A DNA stretch of 64,000 nucleotides from Methanohalophilus halophilus (GTDB taxonomy: Archaea; Halobacteriota; Methanosarcinia; Methanosarcinales; Methanosarcinaceae), in assembly GCF_001889405.1 (NCBI RefSeq), contig NZ_CP017921.1, forward strand, positions 324,057 through 388,056, in the 5' to 3' direction. A program made the translations under genes and the position numbers. Below, in pieces: positions 6,706-46,286 of this stretch; the stretch's first letter is position 1; each line of letters begins with the position of its first letter. The notes under the pieces are model-generated. The model was not told the DNA's origin, made no database searches, and saw only the letters and a program-made list of their open reading frames with translations.

Positions 6706-9480
6706 ATGCTTGAAGAGGAATACGATATAAATTTCTTCTACGAAAACGGTTTTATCAGAAAACAGTGCCAAAAGTGTGGCAGTTATTTCTGGACCCGTGA
6801 CAGAGACAGGGATACATGCGGAGATGCACCCTGTGACCCATATTCATTCATCGGCAACCCCGTCTTCAAGAAAAAATTTAATCTTGCACAGATGAGGGAG
6901 TTTTATCTTAGTTACTTTGAGAAAAATGGACACACACGTATTGAAAGATACCCTGTGATAGCACGCTGGAGAAATGATATCTATCTTACTATCGCCTCCA
7001 TAGCAGATTTCCAGCCCTTTGTAACTTCCGGACAGGTTGCCCCACCTGCAAACCCACTCACCATATCACAACCATGCATTCGTCTTTCTGACCTGGATGC
7101 AGTAGGAAGAAGTGGCCGCCATCTGACTACCTTTGAGATGATGGCACATCACGCATTCAACAAAAAGGATAATGAGATCTACTGGAAAGACCAGACAGTA
7201 CAGCTCTGTGACGGCCTGCTCAACGAGCTTGGAGTAGACCCCTTTGCTGTAACCTATAAAGAAGAACCCTGGGCAGGTGGCGGAAACGCCGGTGCCTGTG
7301 TTGAAGTTCTCATAGGTGGCCTGGAAGTGGCAACCCTTGTGTTTATGAATCTCCAGCAATCCAAAGACGGAGATATTGTGATTAAAGGTGATACTTACAG
7401 GAAAATGGATAACTACATAGTGGACACAGGCTACGGATTGGAAAGGTTGGTATGGGCATCCCAGGGAACCCCTACTGTATACGATGCTATATTCCCGGAA
7501 GTTGTTGGGGAACTTATGGAACTGGCAGGAGTGGAGCATCGGCTGGAAGACAAAGACTATGCAAACATTTTATCCCAGAACGCCCGGCTTGCAGGCCTGA
7601 TGGACGTAAGTGAAAAAGCAAACCTGCTGGAATTGCGCAAACAGGTAGCTTCAAACATAGGAATTACTGCTGACAAACTTGGCACCATAATGGAGCCCGT
7701 GGAAACGGCATATGCAATTGCAGACCACGCCCGTTGTATAACATTTATGCTGGGTGACGGAATAATACCTTCAAATGTCAAAGCCGGATATCTTGCAAGA
7801 CTTGTGATCAGGCGCACAATGAAGATGATGCAGGACCTTGGTATCAAAATCCCGTTATCAGACATTATACAGATGCATATCAACCATCTCCCTGAATATC
7901 CTGAGTTCGCCGACAGATTTGATGTAATAAACGACATACTGGATAACGAAGAAAAGAAATTCCAGGAAACCCTGCAGCGTGGGAAGAAACTCATACAAAA
8001 ATCTGCAAAGCACTACAAGAAAAAGGGAGAAAAAATGCCTCTTGACACTGTTATAGATATGTATGACAGTCATGGCATACCGGCTGAAATATCCAAAGAA
8101 GCTGCTTCTGAAGTTGGAGTGGAAGTCGAACTACCCGATAATTTTTACTCCCTTGTCGCTGAGCGTCACAGCAAATCCGTGCAGGAAGAGGAAAAAGAAA
8201 TCCCCTATGCAGATCGTCTCAAGAAACTCCCCCCTACAAAACGGCTTTTCTACGATGAACCAAACAGAATGGAATTCGAAGCTGTTGTTCTTGATGTTTT
8301 TGACAATAATATAGTGCTTGACAGCACGCTTCTCTATCCGGAAGGAGGGGGACAACCACCAGACCATGGCACATTCATGGTAGATGATGCCTTACTCAAA
8401 GTGATCGATGTCCAGATATTTGACGGCGTGGTCATCCATACCATAGAAAGGATCGAAGATGAACTCCATATTCGAAAAGGAGATATGGTAACGGGTAAAG
8501 TGGATGAAAAGCGTCGCATGGCCCATGCAAGAAATCATACTGCAACCCATATAATAAACGATGCAGCCCGGCAGGTGCTGGGAGAACATATATGGCAGGC
8601 AGGTGCACAGAAATTCACCGACCGCGCCAGACTTGATATTTCCCATTACAAAAGAATTGTTCCTGAGGAAATCAATGAGATTGAGATGATTGCAAACCAG
8701 ATGGTAATGGAGAACAAGCGAGTAATAAGCGAATGGATGGATCGCAGTACCGCCGAAAAAAGATATGGTTTTAGCCTTTACCAGGGCGGAGTACCACCAG
8801 GCGATCGCATTCGTGTATTGCATGTAGGAAGCGATATTGAAGCCTGTGCAGGGACCCACTGCACCTTTACCGGACAGGTCGGCCCCATCAAGATTCTGAA
8901 GACAGAACGGATACAGGATGGAGTAGAACGTATTGAATATGCAGCAGGCGAATCTGCTGTTGTAGCTTTCCAGGAAAGGGATAAGCTTCTCAGAAGTTCT
9001 GCAGAAACATTGAGGGTATCTACCGAGCAACTACCGTCAACCATTGAACGTTTCTTCACTGAATGGAAAGAATTTAAGAAAGAAAACACCCGACTCAAGA
9101 AAGAACTGGCAGAATCCCATGTAAACCAATTAGTTGAAAATGCTGAACTGATAAAGGAGATTCGCCTTATAAATTCAAGAATCGATGGTGCAGATGCCGA
9201 TGAACTTACCCGAATTGCAGGAGAACTTGCTTCAAGTGACGATATTGTTGCATTACTCATAAGTGATCATGAAGGTGTCAAAATCGCATCTGCTGCCGGT
9301 GACAGTGCAGTTTCAAAAGGGGTTAACGTAGGAAACATCGTACGTGAAATAGCAAGTCTAACCGGCGGAGGCGGAGGAGGTAAACCTTCAATGGCACGTG
9401 GTGGAGGCCAGGATAGTTCAAGGATTGATGAAGGTCTTGCATTGGGTCGCCGGATGTTAGAAGAGCAACTCGGGGATTAA
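6706..9480 (+). CDS. alaS: Alanyl-tRNA synthetase, archaeal type
   Basis: Charges tRNA-Ala with alanine. The 924-residue length fits the archaeal form. The N-terminus contains an archaeal zinc-ribbon-like set of cysteines (C21, C24, C38, C43) before the class II catalytic core. The editing domain has HTATH and CAGTH, the zinc ligands that clear mischarged Ser/Gly. The C-terminal domain ends with the GGGGGGKPSMARGGG segment. The ATG at 6706 is chosen because the family starts at MLEEEYD; the 11 extra residues available upstream are unlike the family. A TATA-like ATATTTTTAAAC lies about 70 bases before it. Confidence 0.96.
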   Translation: MLEEEYDINFFYENGFIRKQCQKCGSYFWTRDRDRDTCGDAPCDPYSFIGNPVFKKKFNLAQMREFYLSYFEKNGHTRIERYPVIARWRNDIYLTIASIADFQPFVTSGQVAPPANPLTISQPCIRLSDLDAVGRSGRHLTTFEMMAHHAFNKKDNEIYWKDQTVQLCDGLLNELGVDPFAVTYKEEPWAGGGNAGACVEVLIGGLEVATLVFMNLQQSKDGDIVIKGDTYRKMDNYIVDTGYGLERLVWASQGTPTVYDAIFPEVVGELMELAGVEHRLEDKDYANILSQNARLAGLMDVSEKANLLELRKQVASNIGITADKLGTIMEPVETAYAIADHARCITFMLGDGIIPSNVKAGYLARLVIRRTMKMMQDLGIKIPLSDIIQMHINHLPEYPEFADRFDVINDILDNEEKKFQETLQRGKKLIQKSAKHYKKKGEKMPLDTVIDMYDSHGIPAEISKEAASEVGVEVELPDNFYSLVAERHSKSVQEEEKEIPYADRLKKLPPTKRLFYDEPNRMEFEAVVLDVFDNNIVLDSTLLYPEGGGQPPDHGTFMVDDALLKVIDVQIFDGVVIHTIERIEDELHIRKGDMVTGKVDEKRRMAHARNHTATHIINDAARQVLGEHIWQAGAQKFTDRARLDISHYKRIVPEEINEIEMIANQMVMENKRVISEWMDRSTAEKRYGFSLYQGGVPPGDRIRVLHVGSDIEACAGTHCTFTGQVGPIKILKTERIQDGVERIEYAAGESAVVAFQERDKLLRSSAETLRVSTEQLPSTIERFFTEWKEFKKENTRLKKELAESHVNQLVENAELIKEIRLINSRIDGADADELTRIAGELASSDDIVALLISDHEGVKIASAAGDSAVSKGVNVGNIVREIASLTGGGGGGKPSMARGGGQDSSRIDEGLALGRRMLEEQLGD

Positions 9481-38678: not shown

Positions 38679-39902
38679 ATTTCTGAAGAAAGAACGAAGA
38701 AAATTGTAGTCAGCAACTTAACGAAGATCTTTGGTAAGCATCCAAAGAAAGCTTTGTCTTATGTTGAAGAAGGTCTTTCAAAAGATGAAATCTTCAACAA
38801 GACTGGTCAGACCGTAGGACTGTATAATGTGAGTTTTGATGTGTATGAAGGAGAAATTTTTGTACTTATGGGCCTTTCCGGGTCCGGTAAATCAACCCTT
38901 CTGCGTTGCCTAAACCGACTCATTGAACCCACATCCGGGTCGATACAGGTTGGTGAGGAAGATATTACAAAGGCGTCCAAGGAAAGACTTCGGTTGATCA
39001 GGGAAAAACAGATCAGCATGGTCTTCCAGAATTTCGCCCTTTTACCACACAGAACCATCATTGATAATGTTGCTTATGGTCTTGAAATACAGGATTTCTC
39101 AAAGGATGAAAGACATGAAAAGGCAGCAGTTGCAATCGAAACTGTTGGCCTGAAAGGTCATGAGTTCAGTAAACCATCCCAGTTGAGTGGAGGTATGCAG
39201 CAGAGGGTCGGACTTGCCAGAGCCCTTGCAACAGACCCGGAGATCCTCTTAATGGATGAAGCATTCAGTGCCCTTGACCCGCTTATCCGCAGTGAGATGC
39301 AGGATGAGTTGCTTGAACTTGAGGAAAAGATGCAGAAAACGATTGTTTTCGTATCACATGACCTGGATGAGGCCCTCAAGCTCGGTGACCGTATTGCCTT
39401 GATGAAAGATGGAGAAATTGCCCAGATCGGGACTGCCGAAGAAATCCTCACAAATCCTGCGAACGATTATGTCTCCAAATTCGTTGCCGGCGTGGATAAG
39501 ACAAAGATCCTTACTGCTGAGAATGTAATGAAGAGGCCTGATCCAGTTGTTTCAATGAAATCTGGCCTACAAGTTGCCCTGAAACTCATGGAAAAGCACG
39601 GCATATCCTCCATATACGTGGTGGATAAAGCCAAGCGTCTCCAGGGATTCCTGAAAGTCGATGATGCGGTCCGAGCACAGAAAGCCGGAAAAACCATGGA
39701 AGATGTAATCATAAAGGAGTTCCCGAAAACTACAGTCGACACTCCACTACAAGACCTCATATCAATCCGGGCAGAAACTGACCAGCCAATTGCGATTGTT
39801 AACGAAAATGATAAACTTGTAGGCGTGGTCGTCAGAGGTAGTATTCTTGCTGCACTTAAGACCACTGAAGATGAAGAACAAGTTGAGGAGGTAGCACAAT
39901 GA
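38679..39902 (+). CDS. opuAA: Glycine betaine ABC transporter, ATP-binding subunit with CBS domains
   Basis: ProV/OpuAA-type ATPase that powers betaine uptake, 407 residues. Walker A is GLSGSGKST, the signature LSGGMQQR, and Walker [14 protein letters not shown]. Two C-terminal CBS domains (about residues 285-395; [20 protein letters not shown]) could sense ionic strength as in OpuA. The family N-terminus, [19 protein letters not shown], lies upstream of the first ordinary start (TTG 38754). The frame is open only back to TAA 38649, with no ATG, GTG or TTG; ATT at 38679, eight bases after AAAGGGG, is the best initiator. It overlaps the permease by 4 bases (ATGA). Confidence 0.9.
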
Positions 39903-40729
39903 TAGTACCACAACTCCCTATAGGAAGCGTTGTCGAATCTGCAGTCTATTGGATTAGTGATACTTTAGGCTTCATCCTTGATGCATTCAGTGCCCTTTTT
40001 GGATTTGTCATTGATATTTTCAAAGATGTACTAATGGCAATGCCACCTCTGTTGTTTGTTGTGTTGCTTGCAGCCCTTGCATACGTAATCGGTCGCAAGG
40101 ACTGGAAACTTGCTTTAGGTACTGCCCTTGGATTCATAGTGATACTGAGTATGGACCTCTGGGAATATTCCATGGAAACAATCGCTCTTGTAATTTCGTC
40201 TGCTGCACTGGCTCTAATAATAGGTATTCCTTTGGGCATTCTTGCGGCAAAGAGTGAGACTCTTCACAGGGTATTGAGACCGATTCTGGATCTTATGCAG
40301 ACTATGCCTTCGTTTGTTTACCTTATCCCAGCAGTTATTTTCTTTGGACTTGGTAACGTGCCGGGTATGATCGCAACAGTTGTGTTCTCCATGCCCCCTG
40401 CAATCAGGCTTACAACCCTTGGAATAACCCAGGTTCCTAAAGAACTGGTAGAAGTTGCCGATGCTTTTGGGTCAACCTCATGGCAAAAACTTATCAAGGT
40501 GGAAATACCTGTAGCTTTAAAAACAATAATGGCCGGAGTTAACCAGTGTATAATGCTTGCCCTTTCAATGGTCGTTATTGCCTCAATGATTGGTGCCCGA
40601 GGCCTTGGATATCAGGTATTGATAGGAATCCAGAGGGTTGATATAGGAGTCGGATTCGAAGCAGGGCTTGGAATTGTCATAATCGCTATTGTACTTGACA
40701 GGCTTACACAGCACCTTACACCAAAATAA
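39899..40729 (+). CDS. opuAB: Glycine betaine ABC transporter, permease subunit
   Basis: A 276-residue ProW-type permease with about six or seven membrane segments. The EAA loop that docks the ATPase is seen in [23 protein letters not shown]. The start is coupled to the ATPase gene (ATGA). The 3' part of this gene was later copied: a decayed duplicate lies at 42690-43139. SBP1 follows after 53 bases. Confidence 0.95.
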
Positions 40730-40782
40730 GTGCTAAAGCCTTCATTCTTTTTATCCAATTAACACAGGAGGAATAATAGAAA

Positions 40783-41667
40783 ATGGATAATAAATATAAA
40801 GCAGTAATAGTAGGAATTCTTTTAGTGCTTTCTCTCTTTGCTGCTGGTTGCGCCCAGCAGGGAGAAGAAGGCGATGATGGTGCAGATGAACAAAAAACCA
40901 CGAGCATCGGCTATGTTATGTGGGACGGTGAAATTGCCAGTACCAACGTAATGAAAGAGGTCCTTGAACAGGCCGGTTACGACGTCGATATTATCGCTGT
41001 TGATGCAGGCCCACTATACCAGGGACTTGCAGACGGCCAGTTTGACTTTACAACATCCGCATGGCTTCCACAAACCCAGGCAAATTACTGGGAGCAGTAT
41101 GGAGACCAGGTTGACAGCGTTGCTGTAAATCTTGAAGACTGCAGACTCGGTCTTGCAGTACCAACCTACATGGAAGATATTAATTCCATCGAAGACCTGA
41201 ATGCAAACAAGGAGAAGTTCGATGGAAAGATCACCGGTATTGACCCCGGTGCAGGTATCATGCAGAACACAGAAGATGCAATCGACATGTATGGTCTGGA
41301 ATATGACCTTGAAGCCAGCAGCAGTGCTGGAATGGCCTCTGCACTTGACGGTGCTTACAGGGACGAGGAACCAATCGTTGTCACCCTCTGGACACCTCAC
41401 TGGGCATTCGGCAGATATGACCTGAAGATTCTGGATGATCCACAACAGGCCTACGGTGAAGCAGATCATGTAGAAACCCTTGCAAGACAGGGACTCGAGG
41501 AAGAAAAACCGGAACTCTATGCAATCATCAGCAGGTTCCACTGGACCCATGATGAGATTCAGACCGTAATGGCTGATATGGAAGACGGCATGGATGCCGA
41601 AGATGCTGCTGCAAAGTGGGTCGAAAACAATCCAGATAGAGTTAACGAATGGCTTGGAACTGAATAA
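40783..41667 (+). CDS. opuAC: Glycine betaine-binding lipoprotein 1 (OpuAC type)
   Basis: A 294-residue substrate-binding protein with a lipoprotein signal LSLFAAGC (Cys22 lipidated), anchored outside the membrane. The betaine-binding region contains the aromatic residues of SAWLPQTQANYWEQYG and TLWTPHWAFGRYDLK. GGAGGAATAATAG precedes the ATG. It is highly similar to SBP3 at 43193, in places almost base for base. Its stop codon is inside a terminator hairpin (41662-41686). Confidence 0.95.
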   Translation: MDNKYKAVIVGILLVLSLFAAGCAQQGEEGDDGADEQKTTSIGYVMWDGEIASTNVMKEVLEQAGYDVDIIAVDAGPLYQGLADGQFDFTTSAWLPQTQANYWEQYGDQVDSVAVNLEDCRLGLAVPTYMEDINSIEDLNANKEKFDGKITGIDPGAGIMQNTEDAIDMYGLEYDLEASSSAGMASALDGAYRDEEPIVVTLWTPHWAFGRYDLKILDDPQQAYGEADHVETLARQGLEEEKPELYAIISRFHWTHDEIQTVMADMEDGMDAEDAAAKWVENNPDRVNEWLGTE

Positions 41668-41698
41668 GGGTAATTAACCCTTATTCCTGTTTTTTTAT
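41662..41698 (+). terminator. Terminator hairpin overlapping the SBP1 stop codon
   Basis: Perfect 10-bp arms GAATAAGGGT / ACCCTTATTC with a 5-base loop, followed by CTGTTTTTTTA. The TAA stop of the binding protein lies in the left arm. The same element is found after SBP3, as expected from duplication. Confidence 0.8.
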
Positions 41699-41739
41699 CG
41701 TTCCATCTATTTAATTTTTGGAAAAAAGAGGTGATTAGT

Positions 41740-42621
41740 TTGAGACATAATGTTTTGAAAGTTTTAGCATGCTTAGTGATAGCAATAGCCCTGATTGGTG
41801 CAGGTTGCACATCACAGGAAGAAAGCCCGACAGAAGAGCCAGTACGAATTGGAGTAGTCCAGTGGGATGACTCACGTGCAACTGGAAATGTATTTTTGCA
41901 TATCCTTGATGAAGGAGGCCATGAATATGAGATTGTATCCGCAGATTTAGGAGGTCTATACCAGGCAACCTCACAGGGAGACATCGATGTCCTTATCCAA
42001 GCATGGTTACCTGCAACCCAGGCTTCCTACTGGGATCAATACGGAGACAGTCTGAACAAGGCACAGGTTGTGTCATCAGGTGCTAAAATTGGACTTGCTG
42101 TTCCAGACTACGTATATGATTCCGGAATTACCACCGTGGAAGACCTGAAGGGCAATGCCAGCAAATTCGATGGCAGAATAACTGGTATTGAGCCCGGTGC
42201 AGGAATAATGGTCACCACAGAGAAGGCCCTTGAAGAATACAACCTTGAAGAATATGAATTATATTCCAGCAGTACTGTGGGAATGGCAACCGAGCTTCAG
42301 GACAAAATGGACAATGAGGAATGGATCGTAGCTACCCTCTGGAGGCCACACTGGACATTCGCACGTATGGAAGGCCTGAAATTCCTTGAAGATCCAAAAG
42401 GAGTATATGGAGGAAGTGACAACCTTGTCATCCTCACAAGACCTGGTTTTGAAGAAGACAGACCAGAATTCTACCAGCTTATCCAGAACTATGAAATGGA
42501 TCTTTCTGATATCGAATCAATAATGATTGATATCGATGAAGGACAATCTCCTGAAGAGGCTGCATCCAATTGGCTTGCCGAGAATCCTGAAAAGTACGAT
42601 GAGGTACTTGGCACCCAGTGA
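41740..42621 (+). CDS. Glycine betaine-binding lipoprotein 2 (OpuAC type, divergent paralogue)
   Basis: A 293-residue binding protein with lipobox IALIGAGC. It aligns with SBP1 along its length (QAWLPATQASYWDQYGD, TLWRPHWTFARMEGLKFL), but is clearly divergent, so it may have different affinity or ligand. The TTG at 41740 is chosen because GAGGTGAT lies five bases upstream; a GTG three codons earlier is part of that site. It ends in a terminator of its own. Confidence 0.92.
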   Translation: MRHNVLKVLACLVIAIALIGAGCTSQEESPTEEPVRIGVVQWDDSRATGNVFLHILDEGGHEYEIVSADLGGLYQATSQGDIDVLIQAWLPATQASYWDQYGDSLNKAQVVSSGAKIGLAVPDYVYDSGITTVEDLKGNASKFDGRITGIEPGAGIMVTTEKALEEYNLEEYELYSSSTVGMATELQDKMDNEEWIVATLWRPHWTFARMEGLKFLEDPKGVYGGSDNLVILTRPGFEEDRPEFYQLIQNYEMDLSDIESIMIDIDEGQSPEEAASNWLAENPEKYDEVLGTQ

Positions 42622-42649
42622 GGATGACAATCCTCACTTACTTTTTTTA
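42617..42649 (+). terminator. Terminator hairpin overlapping the SBP2 stop codon
   Basis: Perfect 9-bp arms AGTGAGGAT / ATCCTCACT around GACA, followed by TACTTTTTTTA. The TGA stop is inside the left arm. The sequence is unrelated to the SBP1 hairpin, although the arrangement is the same. Confidence 0.8.
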
Positions 42650-42650
42650 T

Positions 42651-42687
42651 CCACAACCTTTAATAACTAGCATTCCCTTTAGAGTAA
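42651..42687 (+). repeat. Duplicated promoter-like spacer, copy 1
   Basis: A 37-base segment with CCTTTAATAACTAGCATTCCC at its core matches 44190-44226 at 34 of 37 positions. It contains a TTTAATAA TATA-like element. The second copy is the apparent promoter of the small basic protein gene at 44268. The present copy marks the downstream end of the first unit of a tandem duplication. Confidence 0.75.
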
Positions 42688-42689
42688 CC

Positions 42690-43139
42690 GTATATCTAAG
42701 AAGGAATGGATACTTAATTTAGGTACCAGCATTGGATATATTTTAATTGTAACAATGGACCTGTGGAAGAATCAAACCCACTGCGCTTGTAATATAATCT
42801 GCTGCACTGGTCCTGCAATCCTGCTTATAAACCTGAGTATTACACAGGCACCAACAGAATTTGTCGATGTTGCCAATATTTTCGGCTCAACCCTGACAGA
42901 AACTTATAAAGGTAGATATCCCGGTTGCTCTTAAGACTATAATGGCCGGTGTTACCAGTATTTTATGCTGGCCTTTTCAATGTTTGTTATTGCTTCCATG
43001 ATCGAAAACCTTTGCCTGACTTAGAAGGTGTTGATAGGAATCCAGCGAGTAGATTCGAGTTGGATTCGAAGCAGGACTCAGTATTGTGATTATAGCGATT
43101 GTCCTTGTCAGACTGACCCAGCACCTTACACCCAAATAA
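42690..43139 (+). pseudogene. Decayed duplicate of the betaine permease gene (opuAB)
   Basis: From about 42690 the sequence follows the functional permease gene from roughly base 40083 to its stop, for example GATAGGAATCCAG and CAGCACCTTACACC at the 3' end. About 185 bases of the 5' end are missing (never copied). About 190 bases inside are deleted, between the parts matching 40205 and 40402. Frameshifts and stops interrupt every frame, so no permease can be made. This stretch plus the spacer is the only long gap without a gene in the window. Confidence 0.88.
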
Positions 43140-43192
43140 GGCCTGAAAAAGTCTTTTTACTTTTATCCAATAATAAAGGAGGAATAGAAAAT

Positions 43193-44071
43193 ATGGATAA
43201 TAAATTAAAAATGATAATAATAGGAATAGTGTTAGTGCTTTCCCTCTTTGCTGCCGGATGTACGCAGCAAGAAAACGAAGATGCAGGCACTGAAGAAAAA
43301 TCAGCAACCATCGGATATGTAATGTGGGATGACGCAATTGCAAATACCAATGTAATAATGAAAGTTCTCGAACAGGAAGGTTATGAAGTAGAAATAATAG
43401 CTGTCGATGCAGGCCCACTATACCAGGGACTTGCAGATGACCAGTTTGACTTTACCACATGTGCATGGCTTCCACAAACCCAGGCAAATTACTGGGAGCA
43501 GTATGGAGACCAGGTTGACAGAGTTGGTCCAAATCTTGAAGACTGCAAACTCGGTCTTGCAGTACCAACTTACATGAAAGACATTAATTCCATCGAAGAC
43601 CTGAATGCAAACAAGGAGAAATTCGATGGTGAAATCACCGGTATTGATCCCGGTGCAGGAATAATGCAGAACACAGAAAATGCAATCGATATGTATGGTC
43701 TGGAATATGACCTTGAAGCCAGCAGCAGTGCCGGAATGGCATCTGCACTTGACGGTGCCTACAGGGACGAGAAACCAATCGTTGTCACCCTCTGGACACC
43801 TCACTGGGCATTCGGCAGATATGACCTGAAGATCCTGGACGATCCACAAAAGGCCTATGGAGATGGCGATAACATAGAAACACTTGCAAGACAGGGACTC
43901 AAGGAAGAAAAACCTGAACTCTATGCAATCATAAGCAATTTACATTATAACCACGAAGAGATTCAGACCGTAATGACCGACATTGAAGCAGGAATGAGTG
44001 CTGAAGAAGCCGCTGCAAAATGGGTCGAAAACAATCCAGACAGAGTTAATGAATGGATTGGAACTGAATAA
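43193..44071 (+). CDS. Glycine betaine-binding lipoprotein 3 (OpuAC type, duplicate of SBP1)
   Basis: A 292-residue lipoprotein (LSLFAAGC) nearly the same as SBP1, including the ligand-region aromatics WLPQTQANYWEQYG and TLWTPHWAFGRYDLK. Differences concentrate in the N-terminal 70 residues and the last 80. FTTSAW is FTTCAW here, adding a Cys near the binding site. The ATG at 43193 follows AAAGGAGGAATAG; the frame is open further upstream only through the pseudogene. It has no intact partner permease nearby, so it probably feeds the opuAA-opuAB transporter. Confidence 0.93.
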   Translation: MDNKLKMIIIGIVLVLSLFAAGCTQQENEDAGTEEKSATIGYVMWDDAIANTNVIMKVLEQEGYEVEIIAVDAGPLYQGLADDQFDFTTCAWLPQTQANYWEQYGDQVDRVGPNLEDCKLGLAVPTYMKDINSIEDLNANKEKFDGEITGIDPGAGIMQNTENAIDMYGLEYDLEASSSAGMASALDGAYRDEKPIVVTLWTPHWAFGRYDLKILDDPQKAYGDGDNIETLARQGLKEEKPELYAIISNLHYNHEEIQTVMTDIEAGMSAEEAAAKWVENNPDRVNEWIGTE

Positions 44072-44100
44072 GGGTAATTTAACCCTTATTCCTGTTTTTT
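44066..44100 (+). terminator. Terminator hairpin overlapping the SBP3 stop codon
   Basis: The same 10-bp arms as after SBP1 (GAATAAGGGT / ACCCTTATTC), with a 6-base loop, followed by CTGTTTTTTA. Again the TAA stop is in the left arm. Confidence 0.8.
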
Positions 44101-44110
44101 ATTAATAGTG

Positions 44111-44161
44111 GATATGAAATATATCTCAGCAGTATTGTAGAAATGACGACTGTACTGCAGG
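44111..44161 (+). pseudogene. Remnant of a duplicated SBP2 gene
   Basis: A 51-base stretch aligns without gaps to bases 42251-42301 inside SBP2 at roughly three-quarters identity (shared TATGAA, CAGCAGTA and CAGG blocks). It sits exactly where a copy of SBP2 would be expected after SBP3, in front of the second spacer copy. It cannot encode a protein. Confidence 0.7.
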
Positions 44162-44189
44162 GTTCAATTGAAGGACAGGCCACTTTTTT

Positions 44190-44226
44190 CCGCAACCTTT
44201 AATAACTAGCATTCCCTCTAAAGTAA
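44190..44226 (+). repeat. Duplicated promoter-like spacer, copy 2 (promoter of the small basic gene)
   Basis: Second copy of the segment at 42651-42687. Its TTTAATAA element lies about 70 bases upstream of the ATG at 44268. It is probably the original promoter of that gene. Confidence 0.7.
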
Positions 44227-44267
44227 TCCACATATTCAAATAATCAATATCATAGAGAGTGATAATT

Positions 44268-44441
44268 ATGGGCAAAACAGGAAGTATTGAATGGGTAAAA
44301 ATAAAGGGACGTAAAGGCAACACAATCAAAGTTAAAAAAGCCAGAGCTAACAAGGCACATACTGCACCTGCACAGAGGTATTCTTCTGCAGGTACAAAGA
44401 GGAGATTCAAAAGAAGATCCCAAAAAGCCATTGTTGGCTGA
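44268..44441 (+). CDS. Small basic protein, 57 aa (DUF5350-like)
   Basis: A very basic protein beginning [18 protein letters not shown] and ending [13 protein letters not shown], rich in Lys and Arg throughout. This composition suggests RNA or ribosome association. I associate it with a small methanogen-specific family (DUF5350-like) but with limited certainty. GAGAGTGAT precedes the ATG at 44268; a GTG inside that site is unlikely to be the start. It ends in TGA and has its own promoter-like spacer, so it is not part of the opu operon. Confidence 0.8.
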
Positions 44442-44600: not shown

Positions 44601-46286
44601 ATGGCAGGACAGATGGCTGGTGGACAGCCAATTTTTATTTTAAGAGACGGAAATCAGAGAACCAGGGGCAGAGATGCCCAGAGCAACAACATAATGGCTG
44701 CAAAAGCTGTGGCTGAAGCTGTCAGGACCACACTCGGACCAAAGGGAATGGACAAGATGCTTGTAGACTCCCTTGGTGACGTAGTAATCACAAATGACGG
44801 CGCAACCATACTCAAGGAAATGGACATTGAGCACCCTGCTGCCAAGATGATCGTAGAAGTTTCCAAGACCCAGGACGATGAAGTAGGAGACGGAACAACC
44901 ACTGCTGCTGTGATCACCGGAGAACTGCTCAAAAAGGCAGAAGACATGATCGAGCAGGATGTACATCCAACAATCATCGCATCCGGATACAGGATGGCAG
45001 CTGAGAAAGCTGGCGAATTGCTCAAAGGACTTGCAAAGGATGTTACGATCGATAACAAGGACACCCTGATAAACATCTCCAATACTGCCATGACAGGAAA
45101 GGGTGCAGAGGCTTCCAAAGAAGTACTCAGCGAAATAGCTGTATCCGCTGTCGCAAGCATTGCAGACAAGACTGATGGCGAAAGCATCGACATCGACAAT
45201 ATAAAGGTAGAAAAGAAGGTCGGTGGCAGTATCGAGGATTCAGAACTCATTGAAGGAATGATCCTTGACAAAGAGCGTGTACATTCCAACATGCCAAAGA
45301 AAGTCACCGATGCAAAGATTGCACTTATCAACAGTGCCATCGAACTTAAGGAAACTGAAGTCGACGCGGAAATCTCCATCACCTCACCTGACCAGCTCCA
45401 GTCCTTCCTTGACCAGGAAGAAAAGATGCTCAAAGGTCTTGTAGATAAAGTCGTCGCAAGCGGTGCGAACGTTGTCTTCTGCCAGAAAGGTATTGATGAC
45501 ATGGCACAGCACTTCCTTGCAAAGGAAGGAATCTTTGCAGTCAGACGTGTCAAAAAGAGTGACATGGAAAAACTCGTACGTTCCACCGGTGGTAAACTGA
45601 TTACCAACATCGAGGAAATGACCGCAGATGATCTTGGAAAGACCGAAACAGTGGAAGAAAGAAAGATTGCTGGCGACAACATGGTCTTTATTACCGGCTG
45701 TGTCAATCCAAGATCCGTATCTATCCTCCTGCGCGGCGGAACCGAACATGTAGTCGACAATATTGAAAGGGCACTCCATGATGCTCTGCGCGTAGTCGGC
45801 GTAGCCATCGAGGATGAAAAACTCGTAGCCGGCGGCGGCGGTCCAGAAGTTGAAGTGGCATTCCAGCTGCAGGATTACGCATCATCCCTCAGCGGCAGGG
45901 AACAGCTGGCAGTCAAAGCATTCGCAGAATCCCTTGAAGTTATCCCAAGGACTCTTGCAGAAAACGCAGGCCTGGATCCAATCGACATGCTTGTAGAACT
46001 TCGCTCCCACCATGAGAAGGGCGCCAAGACCGCCGGTCTTGATGTCTTCAGTGGAAAAGTCATTGACATGTGGGAAGCAGGTGTCGTTGAACCCCTGAGA
46101 ATCAAGACACAGGCAATCAACGCTGCAGCAGAAGCATCTGTCATGATCCTGAGGATCGACGATGTAATTGCGTCCTCCAACCCATCCCCATCAGGCGGCG
46201 GTGGCGAAGGCGGCATGCCACCAGGCATGGGCGGCGGAATGCCACCAGGTATGGGTGGAATGCCTCCAGGCATGGGCGGAATGTAA
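44601..46286 (+). CDS. Thermosome subunit (group II chaperonin)
   Basis: An ATP-driven protein-folding chaperonin subunit of 561 residues that forms double rings in the cytosol. Family landmarks are [18 protein letters not shown], the nucleotide-binding DGTTTAAVI and the C-terminal [10 protein letters not shown]. The C-terminus is a Gly-Met-Pro-rich tail (repeated GGMPPGM units) that projects into the cavity. GGAGGT precedes the ATG. Methanosarcinaceae often have several subunit types; which one this is cannot be told here. Confidence 0.96.

Follow-up and report, generated by a model that had tools for sequence, protein, structure and literature searches.

The betaine importer of Methanohalophilus halophilus is encoded within the window, by which we mean the whole 64,000-base stretch analysed (G000:C1:324057-388056, from a single-contig genome of 2,022,959 bases). 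An ATPase gene and an intact permease gene (PERM) are followed by genes for three OpuAC-type binding proteins (SBP1, SBP2 and SBP3), the last of them behind the remains of a second permease (perm'), and then by genes for a DUF5350 protein and a thermosome. The features, in positions of the window, are these:

38754..39902, plus strand: ATPase subunit of the betaine importer (ABC_tran and CBS domains), not duplicated
39899..40729, plus strand: PERM, the intact permease (BPD_transp_1); the duplicated unit begins inside it, at about 40095
40783..41667, plus strand: SBP1, an OpuAC-type betaine-binding lipoprotein
41662..41686, plus strand: terminator-like hairpin and T run 3' of SBP1
41731..42621, plus strand: SBP2, a second OpuAC-type betaine-binding lipoprotein, about 43% identical to SBP1
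42617..42638, plus strand: terminator-like hairpin and T run 3' of SBP2
42645..42695, plus strand: spacer copy 1, a duplicate of the DUF5350 promoter region with a TATA-like CTTTAATAAC; its promoter role is predicted from sequence, and the junction of the duplication lies at its end, at about 42695
42696..43140, plus strand: perm', a decayed permease copy lacking the first 65 or so codons, with a deletion of about 190 bases, frameshifts and stops
43193..44071, plus strand: SBP3, a copy of SBP1 that has been retained (83% identity at the protein level) and has a ribosome-binding site of its own
44066..44091, plus strand: terminator-like hairpin 3' of SBP3, a copy of the hairpin after SBP1
44112..44161, plus strand: 50-base scrap of a second SBP2 (SBP2'), matching 42252-42301 of SBP2
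44184..44235, plus strand: spacer copy 2, the native DUF5350 promoter region; the duplicated unit ends at about 44235
44268..44441, plus strand: DUF5350 gene (57 aa), the downstream neighbour
44601-46286: thermosome gene, after DUF5350

The ATPase reading frame is listed with a TTG start, and the real start may lie further upstream. Apart from PERM, no intact OpuA-type permease was found in G000, the remaining permease matches being distant (<40% identity); set against three OpuAC-type betaine-binding lipoproteins on the same chromosome, this bears out, in gene number, the earlier suggestion that binding proteins per transporter have increased.

When 42640-44300 is compared by BLAST with 39800-42700, one collinear match of 1303 bases (82% identity, E=0.0) spans the permease 3' half, the binding protein gene and the terminator. 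Shorter matches come from the permease sequence ahead of the 190-base deletion (115 bases, 70%, E=2e-12), the spacer copies (87%, E=3e-10) and the SBP2 scrap against SBP2 (76%, E=5e-6), and a separate repeat search of the window agrees with this self-comparison. By self-alignment, 42.70-44.235 kb is a decayed copy of 40.095-42.695 kb, collinear with it as the original prediction had proposed; the pieces, their order and the junction support a tandem duplication followed by loss of all but one binding protein, and a single in-place event involving a unit of about 2.6 kb accounts for everything found. The limits first given were roughly right, although the left end lies at about 40095 rather than 40083 and the right end, as judged from the related genome RSK (G006), at about 44235 rather than 44226-44228. 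Similarly, the SBP2 scrap is present, but comprises 50 bases (44112-44161) and not 51 (44111-44161), and the permease copy, correctly described as broken, additionally lacks the 190 or so bases corresponding to about 40208-40397 of the permease and has a 2-base deletion.

The passage of spacer copy 1 directly into mid-permease sequence, to which attention had been drawn at the outset, is confirmed and is best kept in RSK, where ...AGTAATCCACATAT is followed immediately by CTAAGAAGGAATGG, DNA from upstream of DUF5350 being joined to the middle of the permease. Since spacer 1 in RSK matches the DUF5350 upstream DNA through AGTAATCCACATAT and then continues as permease, the unit runs from about permease codon 66 to about 44235, so that 33 bases separate its right end from the start of DUF5350 (44268); the junction shows no clear microhomology. 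A collinear second copy and a new joint between unit end and unit start, the two marks of tandem duplication, are both present. The order expected beforehand, PERM-SBP1-SBP2-spacer-DUF5350, occurs in G003 (probably M. mahii) and G001, where it is possibly a reversion and not ancestral.

The position of the right breakpoint, within the region upstream of DUF5350, means that spacer 1 is a copy of that promoter region and not a generic sequence. Its 20-base core, CAACCTTTAATAACTAGCAT, which was picked after its conservation had been noticed, occurs exactly twice in the window, with none expected in shuffles, and among the genomes searched there are two copies in each with the duplication and one in each without. 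In all three two-copy Methanohalophilus genomes neither copy departs from this core, and the single copy in M. profundi (G005) has one mismatch. Among the loci mapped, the DUF5350 and thermosome genes adjoin the betaine operon only in Methanohalophilus. The copied region could give SBP3 its own promoter; a scan for sigma-70 promoters (12 found, 13 expected) is uninformative in an archaeon.

The synteny comparison advised with the original prediction reveals the same layout in G004 and RSK, decayed perm' and its deletions included, and so points to an old event common to these species. Elsewhere, G003 and G001 have ABC-PERM-SBP1-SBP2-DUF5350, M. profundi has ABC-PERM-SBP1-DUF5350 and G007 has one SBP; G002 (L112) has no betaine importer, and its DUF5350 and thermosome genes adjoin the usual neighbour of the ATPase gene. 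In G003 (L041) and G001 (L043) the signal peptide and final codons of SBP1 are still native (83-90% identity), but the core between them (about 50-73%) groups with the SBP of the Methanohalobium-like G036 with 100% support; a domain has been replaced in place. In G001 (L043:6876-8010) a transposase gene (315 aa, IS5-like in appearance) has inserted at the very start of SBP2 and removed its normal start.

The permease copy evolves without coding constraint. Besides its stops and frameshifts, between-species substitutions in perm' are even over codon positions 1, 2 and 3 (11, 13 and 10 of about 104), those in PERM being distributed 0, 0 and 18. The same deletions occur in G000, G004, RSK and G052, a MAG of another genus, and lineage-specific indels and stops have been added to them. 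SBP2' survives differently in each case: as the middle 50 bases in G000, as leader, a different middle piece and tail in G006, as leader and tail in G004 and G005, and as leader and first bases in G052. Such differences between related species are expected if a longer SBP2' once lay after SBP3 and, taken with the shared perm' deletions, indicate that the latter predate species separation, at which time SBP2' was still long. The RSK permease (L040:7442-8269) has an unusually divergent 3' half (87% to congeners, 39/102 third positions) that is closest to perm', and exchange between the two is possible.

In G052 the perm'-SBP3 arrangement lies on contig JAIPUR010000007.1, comprising the last 26 or so SBP2 codons, its terminator, spacer 1, perm', SBP3, its terminator and the first SBP2' bases. 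The SBP3 concerned is 88% identical to that of G000, and the genome also has a complete importer of its own elsewhere (L098). Contamination was considered and rejected, Top6B on this contig being single-copy and 85-87% identical to congeners, as against 75-76% to Methanohalophilus. Spacer 1 comes from a neighbourhood specific to Methanohalophilus, and the transfer therefore went out from that genus. Imperfect direct repeats of about 80 bases border the cassette (L097:5253-5331 and 7005-7083), of which the right-hand one forms the 3' end of a minus-strand, cutA-like gene; no SBP3 relative was found in viral contigs, and plasmids yielded only distant OpuAC proteins (<60% identity) and no mobile carrier. 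It is conceivable, if rather doubtful, that a self-contained transferable cassette of housekeeping promoter, dead permease leader, SBP and terminator arose by the duplication and is now spreading between methanogen genera as an add-on subunit, supplying a resident importer with more binding protein under separate control.

Exchange is evidently common at this locus, as the affinity of the M. mahii and G001 SBP1 cores with G036 attests, and the cassette did reach another genus; perm' and SBP3 might then themselves have been imported by recombination from the operon of another lineage and inserted between SBP2 and DUF5350. However, both group with Methanohalophilus copies (perm' is mostly 75-81% identical to Methanohalophilus permeases, against 64-70% to those of other genera, and even the G052 copy is 72-76% identical to the former), spacer 1 is the DNA that lies upstream of DUF5350 in Methanohalophilus, and any donor must have had this gene order too, which among the loci mapped is found only in Methanohalophilus. 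We consider importation improbable and duplication in place the better explanation. Nor is it likely that perm' works as a leader RNA or as a regulatory region for SBP3 and was kept and co-transferred for that reason, even though it persists in 4/4 genomes with SBP3 in this setting and its substitution between Methanohalophilus copies (about 11-13%) is slightly below SBP3 synonymous divergence (0.17-0.21). The even spread of substitutions and the lineage-specific indels and stops argue instead for simple decay; Rfam gives no match within 38.5-44.7 kb, and adjacency alone accounts for co-transfer.

SBP3 is under purifying selection (dN/dS 0.13-0.30) and forms a clade with 100% support adjacent to SBP1. 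In G000 identity between the two genes is about 91-96% mid-gene and falls to 64-84% near the ends, and within-genome runs of identical variable sites are over-long in G004 (P=0.0005) and G000 (P=0.0145), though not in G006 (P=0.24). Gene conversion between the SBP1 and SBP3 middles is the likely cause; stronger constraint also adds to conservation there, since the G052 copy is conserved in the same part in a genome without such an SBP1. A recent duplication limited to this species, which long identical stretches such as 48/48 bases at 41059/43463 might suggest, is rejected by the perm' deletions common to all four genomes, and low mid-gene divergence beside far more divergent ends fits gene conversion.

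All three binding proteins match the whole PF04069 domain (E=2e-74 for SBP1, 3e-66 for SBP2 and 2e-71 for SBP3), and the best solved relative is OpuAC of Bacillus subtilis (2b4l), whose aromatic cage is formed by W72, W178 and W225, a numbering that agrees with a residue count along the chain in the alignment. W203, W47 and W94 of SBP1 align with these residues and are kept in SBP2 and SBP3, and the 19 fixed differences between SBP1 and SBP3 all fall outside the three cage tryptophans. SBP3 most likely delivers the same ligand to the same importer while being transcribed separately, the sharing of the importer being suggested by the single OpuA-type permease in G000.

OpuAC domains also occur in larger proteins. 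In G003, a 945-aa S-layer-type protein (L042:5086-7923) combines two S-layer domains with a complete OpuAC domain that is 92% identical to SBP1, the core of the genome's own SBP1 having been replaced; a betaine-binding domain has here been built into a surface protein. A 2116-aa protein of G004 (L045:3487-9837, minus strand) has NosD/beta-helix, fibronectin III, S-layer and OpuAC domains, the last about 64-67% identical to SBP1. A third apparent recruitment is a 628-aa protein of G073 (L115:4765-6651), in which an unclassified N-terminal region, with one membrane segment by eye, precedes a C-terminal OpuAC domain nearly identical to the genome's own SBP.

The duplication is probably older than the separation of M. 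mahii, in which case G003 and G001 have lost the array. A tree of three flanking genes has the form (G003,(G000,((G001,G004),(G005,G006)))). Outside the exchanged middle, SBP1 and SBP3 diverge by 0.55-1.26 at synonymous sites, as against 0.14-0.62 for ABC, PERM, THS and the upstream genes between species (0.21-0.42 between G000 and G003), and differences at codon positions 1 and 2 point the same way (29/209 between PERM and perm', 24/209 between perm' of G000 and of G004). The argument for loss in M. mahii is drawn from this divergence and the moderately supported branch separating G003 (86/92) rather than from a remnant of the array; these divergence clocks are rough and the locus recombines often, which makes the order and age of events uncertain. 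In M. profundi, DNA after SBP1 has the same SBP2' deletion junction as DNA after SBP3 in G004, from which it appears that the array probably collapsed by recombination between SBP1 and SBP3.

We propose that the Methanohalophilus ancestor already had an ABC-PERM-SBP1-SBP2 importer ahead of the DUF5350 gene, and that a tandem duplication of about 2.6 kb, from permease codon 66 or so to 33 bases before DUF5350, then occurred in place. The second permease, having no 5' end, was dead from birth and then decayed, while the second SBP1 (now SBP3) was complete, with the DUF5350 promoter region copied ahead of it. This captured promoter would transcribe SBP3 through a pseudogene leader of about 500 bases to the gene's own terminator. 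SBP3 has been retained by selection and probably loads betaine onto the single shared permease, its benefit presumably lying in an added capacity to bind betaine, or in expression under a second programme, and not in a new ligand. Later, SBP2' went on decaying separately in each lineage, SBP1 and SBP3 exchanged sequence, and the cassette was copied into another genus; the array was probably lost from M. mahii, G001 and M. profundi. We regard this account, taken as a whole, as very probably correct.

The duplication is ordinary in kind, old and well documented by relatives, and its processes are individually known; the uncommon parts are the captured promoter region and the transferred cassette. 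Like known OpuA/BtaABC systems, the importer combines a permease and an OpuAC binding protein with the same CBS-domain ATPase. Unlike them, it has three lipoprotein SBPs, each a separate protein, to one permease, and SBP3 forms a unit of its own, preceded by the decayed permease copy. The betaine transporter of M. portucalensis has been named BtaABC (PMC4928046), and M. mahii has four transporter genes, Mmah_0337-0340 (PMC3017947). Those parts of a Methanohalophilus genome comparison reached by a term search (PMC6491703) do not mention an extra SBP unit or a decayed permease, and literature searches, in which subscription journals were covered in part, found no description of this duplication. 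The locus is an unusually readable record of an importer gaining an extra binding protein, with breakpoints, shared and private decay, selection and exchange all legible, and it offers a testable example of one subunit's gene passing between genera by itself. A cheap route to altered importer capacity is suggested, one subunit being added under another promoter; the known picture of betaine uptake is as yet unchanged. Analogous pairs exist in enterobacteria, where HisJ/ArgT with HisQMP and ArtJ/ArtI with ArtQMP are homologous binding proteins, encoded by nearby genes, that serve one membrane complex. The members of those pairs differ in ligand, whereas the cage tryptophans of SBP1 and SBP3 are unchanged and the two would share a permease. 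Closer at hand, the order ABC-PERM-SBP-SBP occurs in many other Methanosarcinaceae genomes, as in G000, but those SBP pairs are mostly old and divergent (the SBP2 type being about 43% identical to SBP1), unlike SBP3, which arose later as an additional SBP1 and has captured a promoter region.
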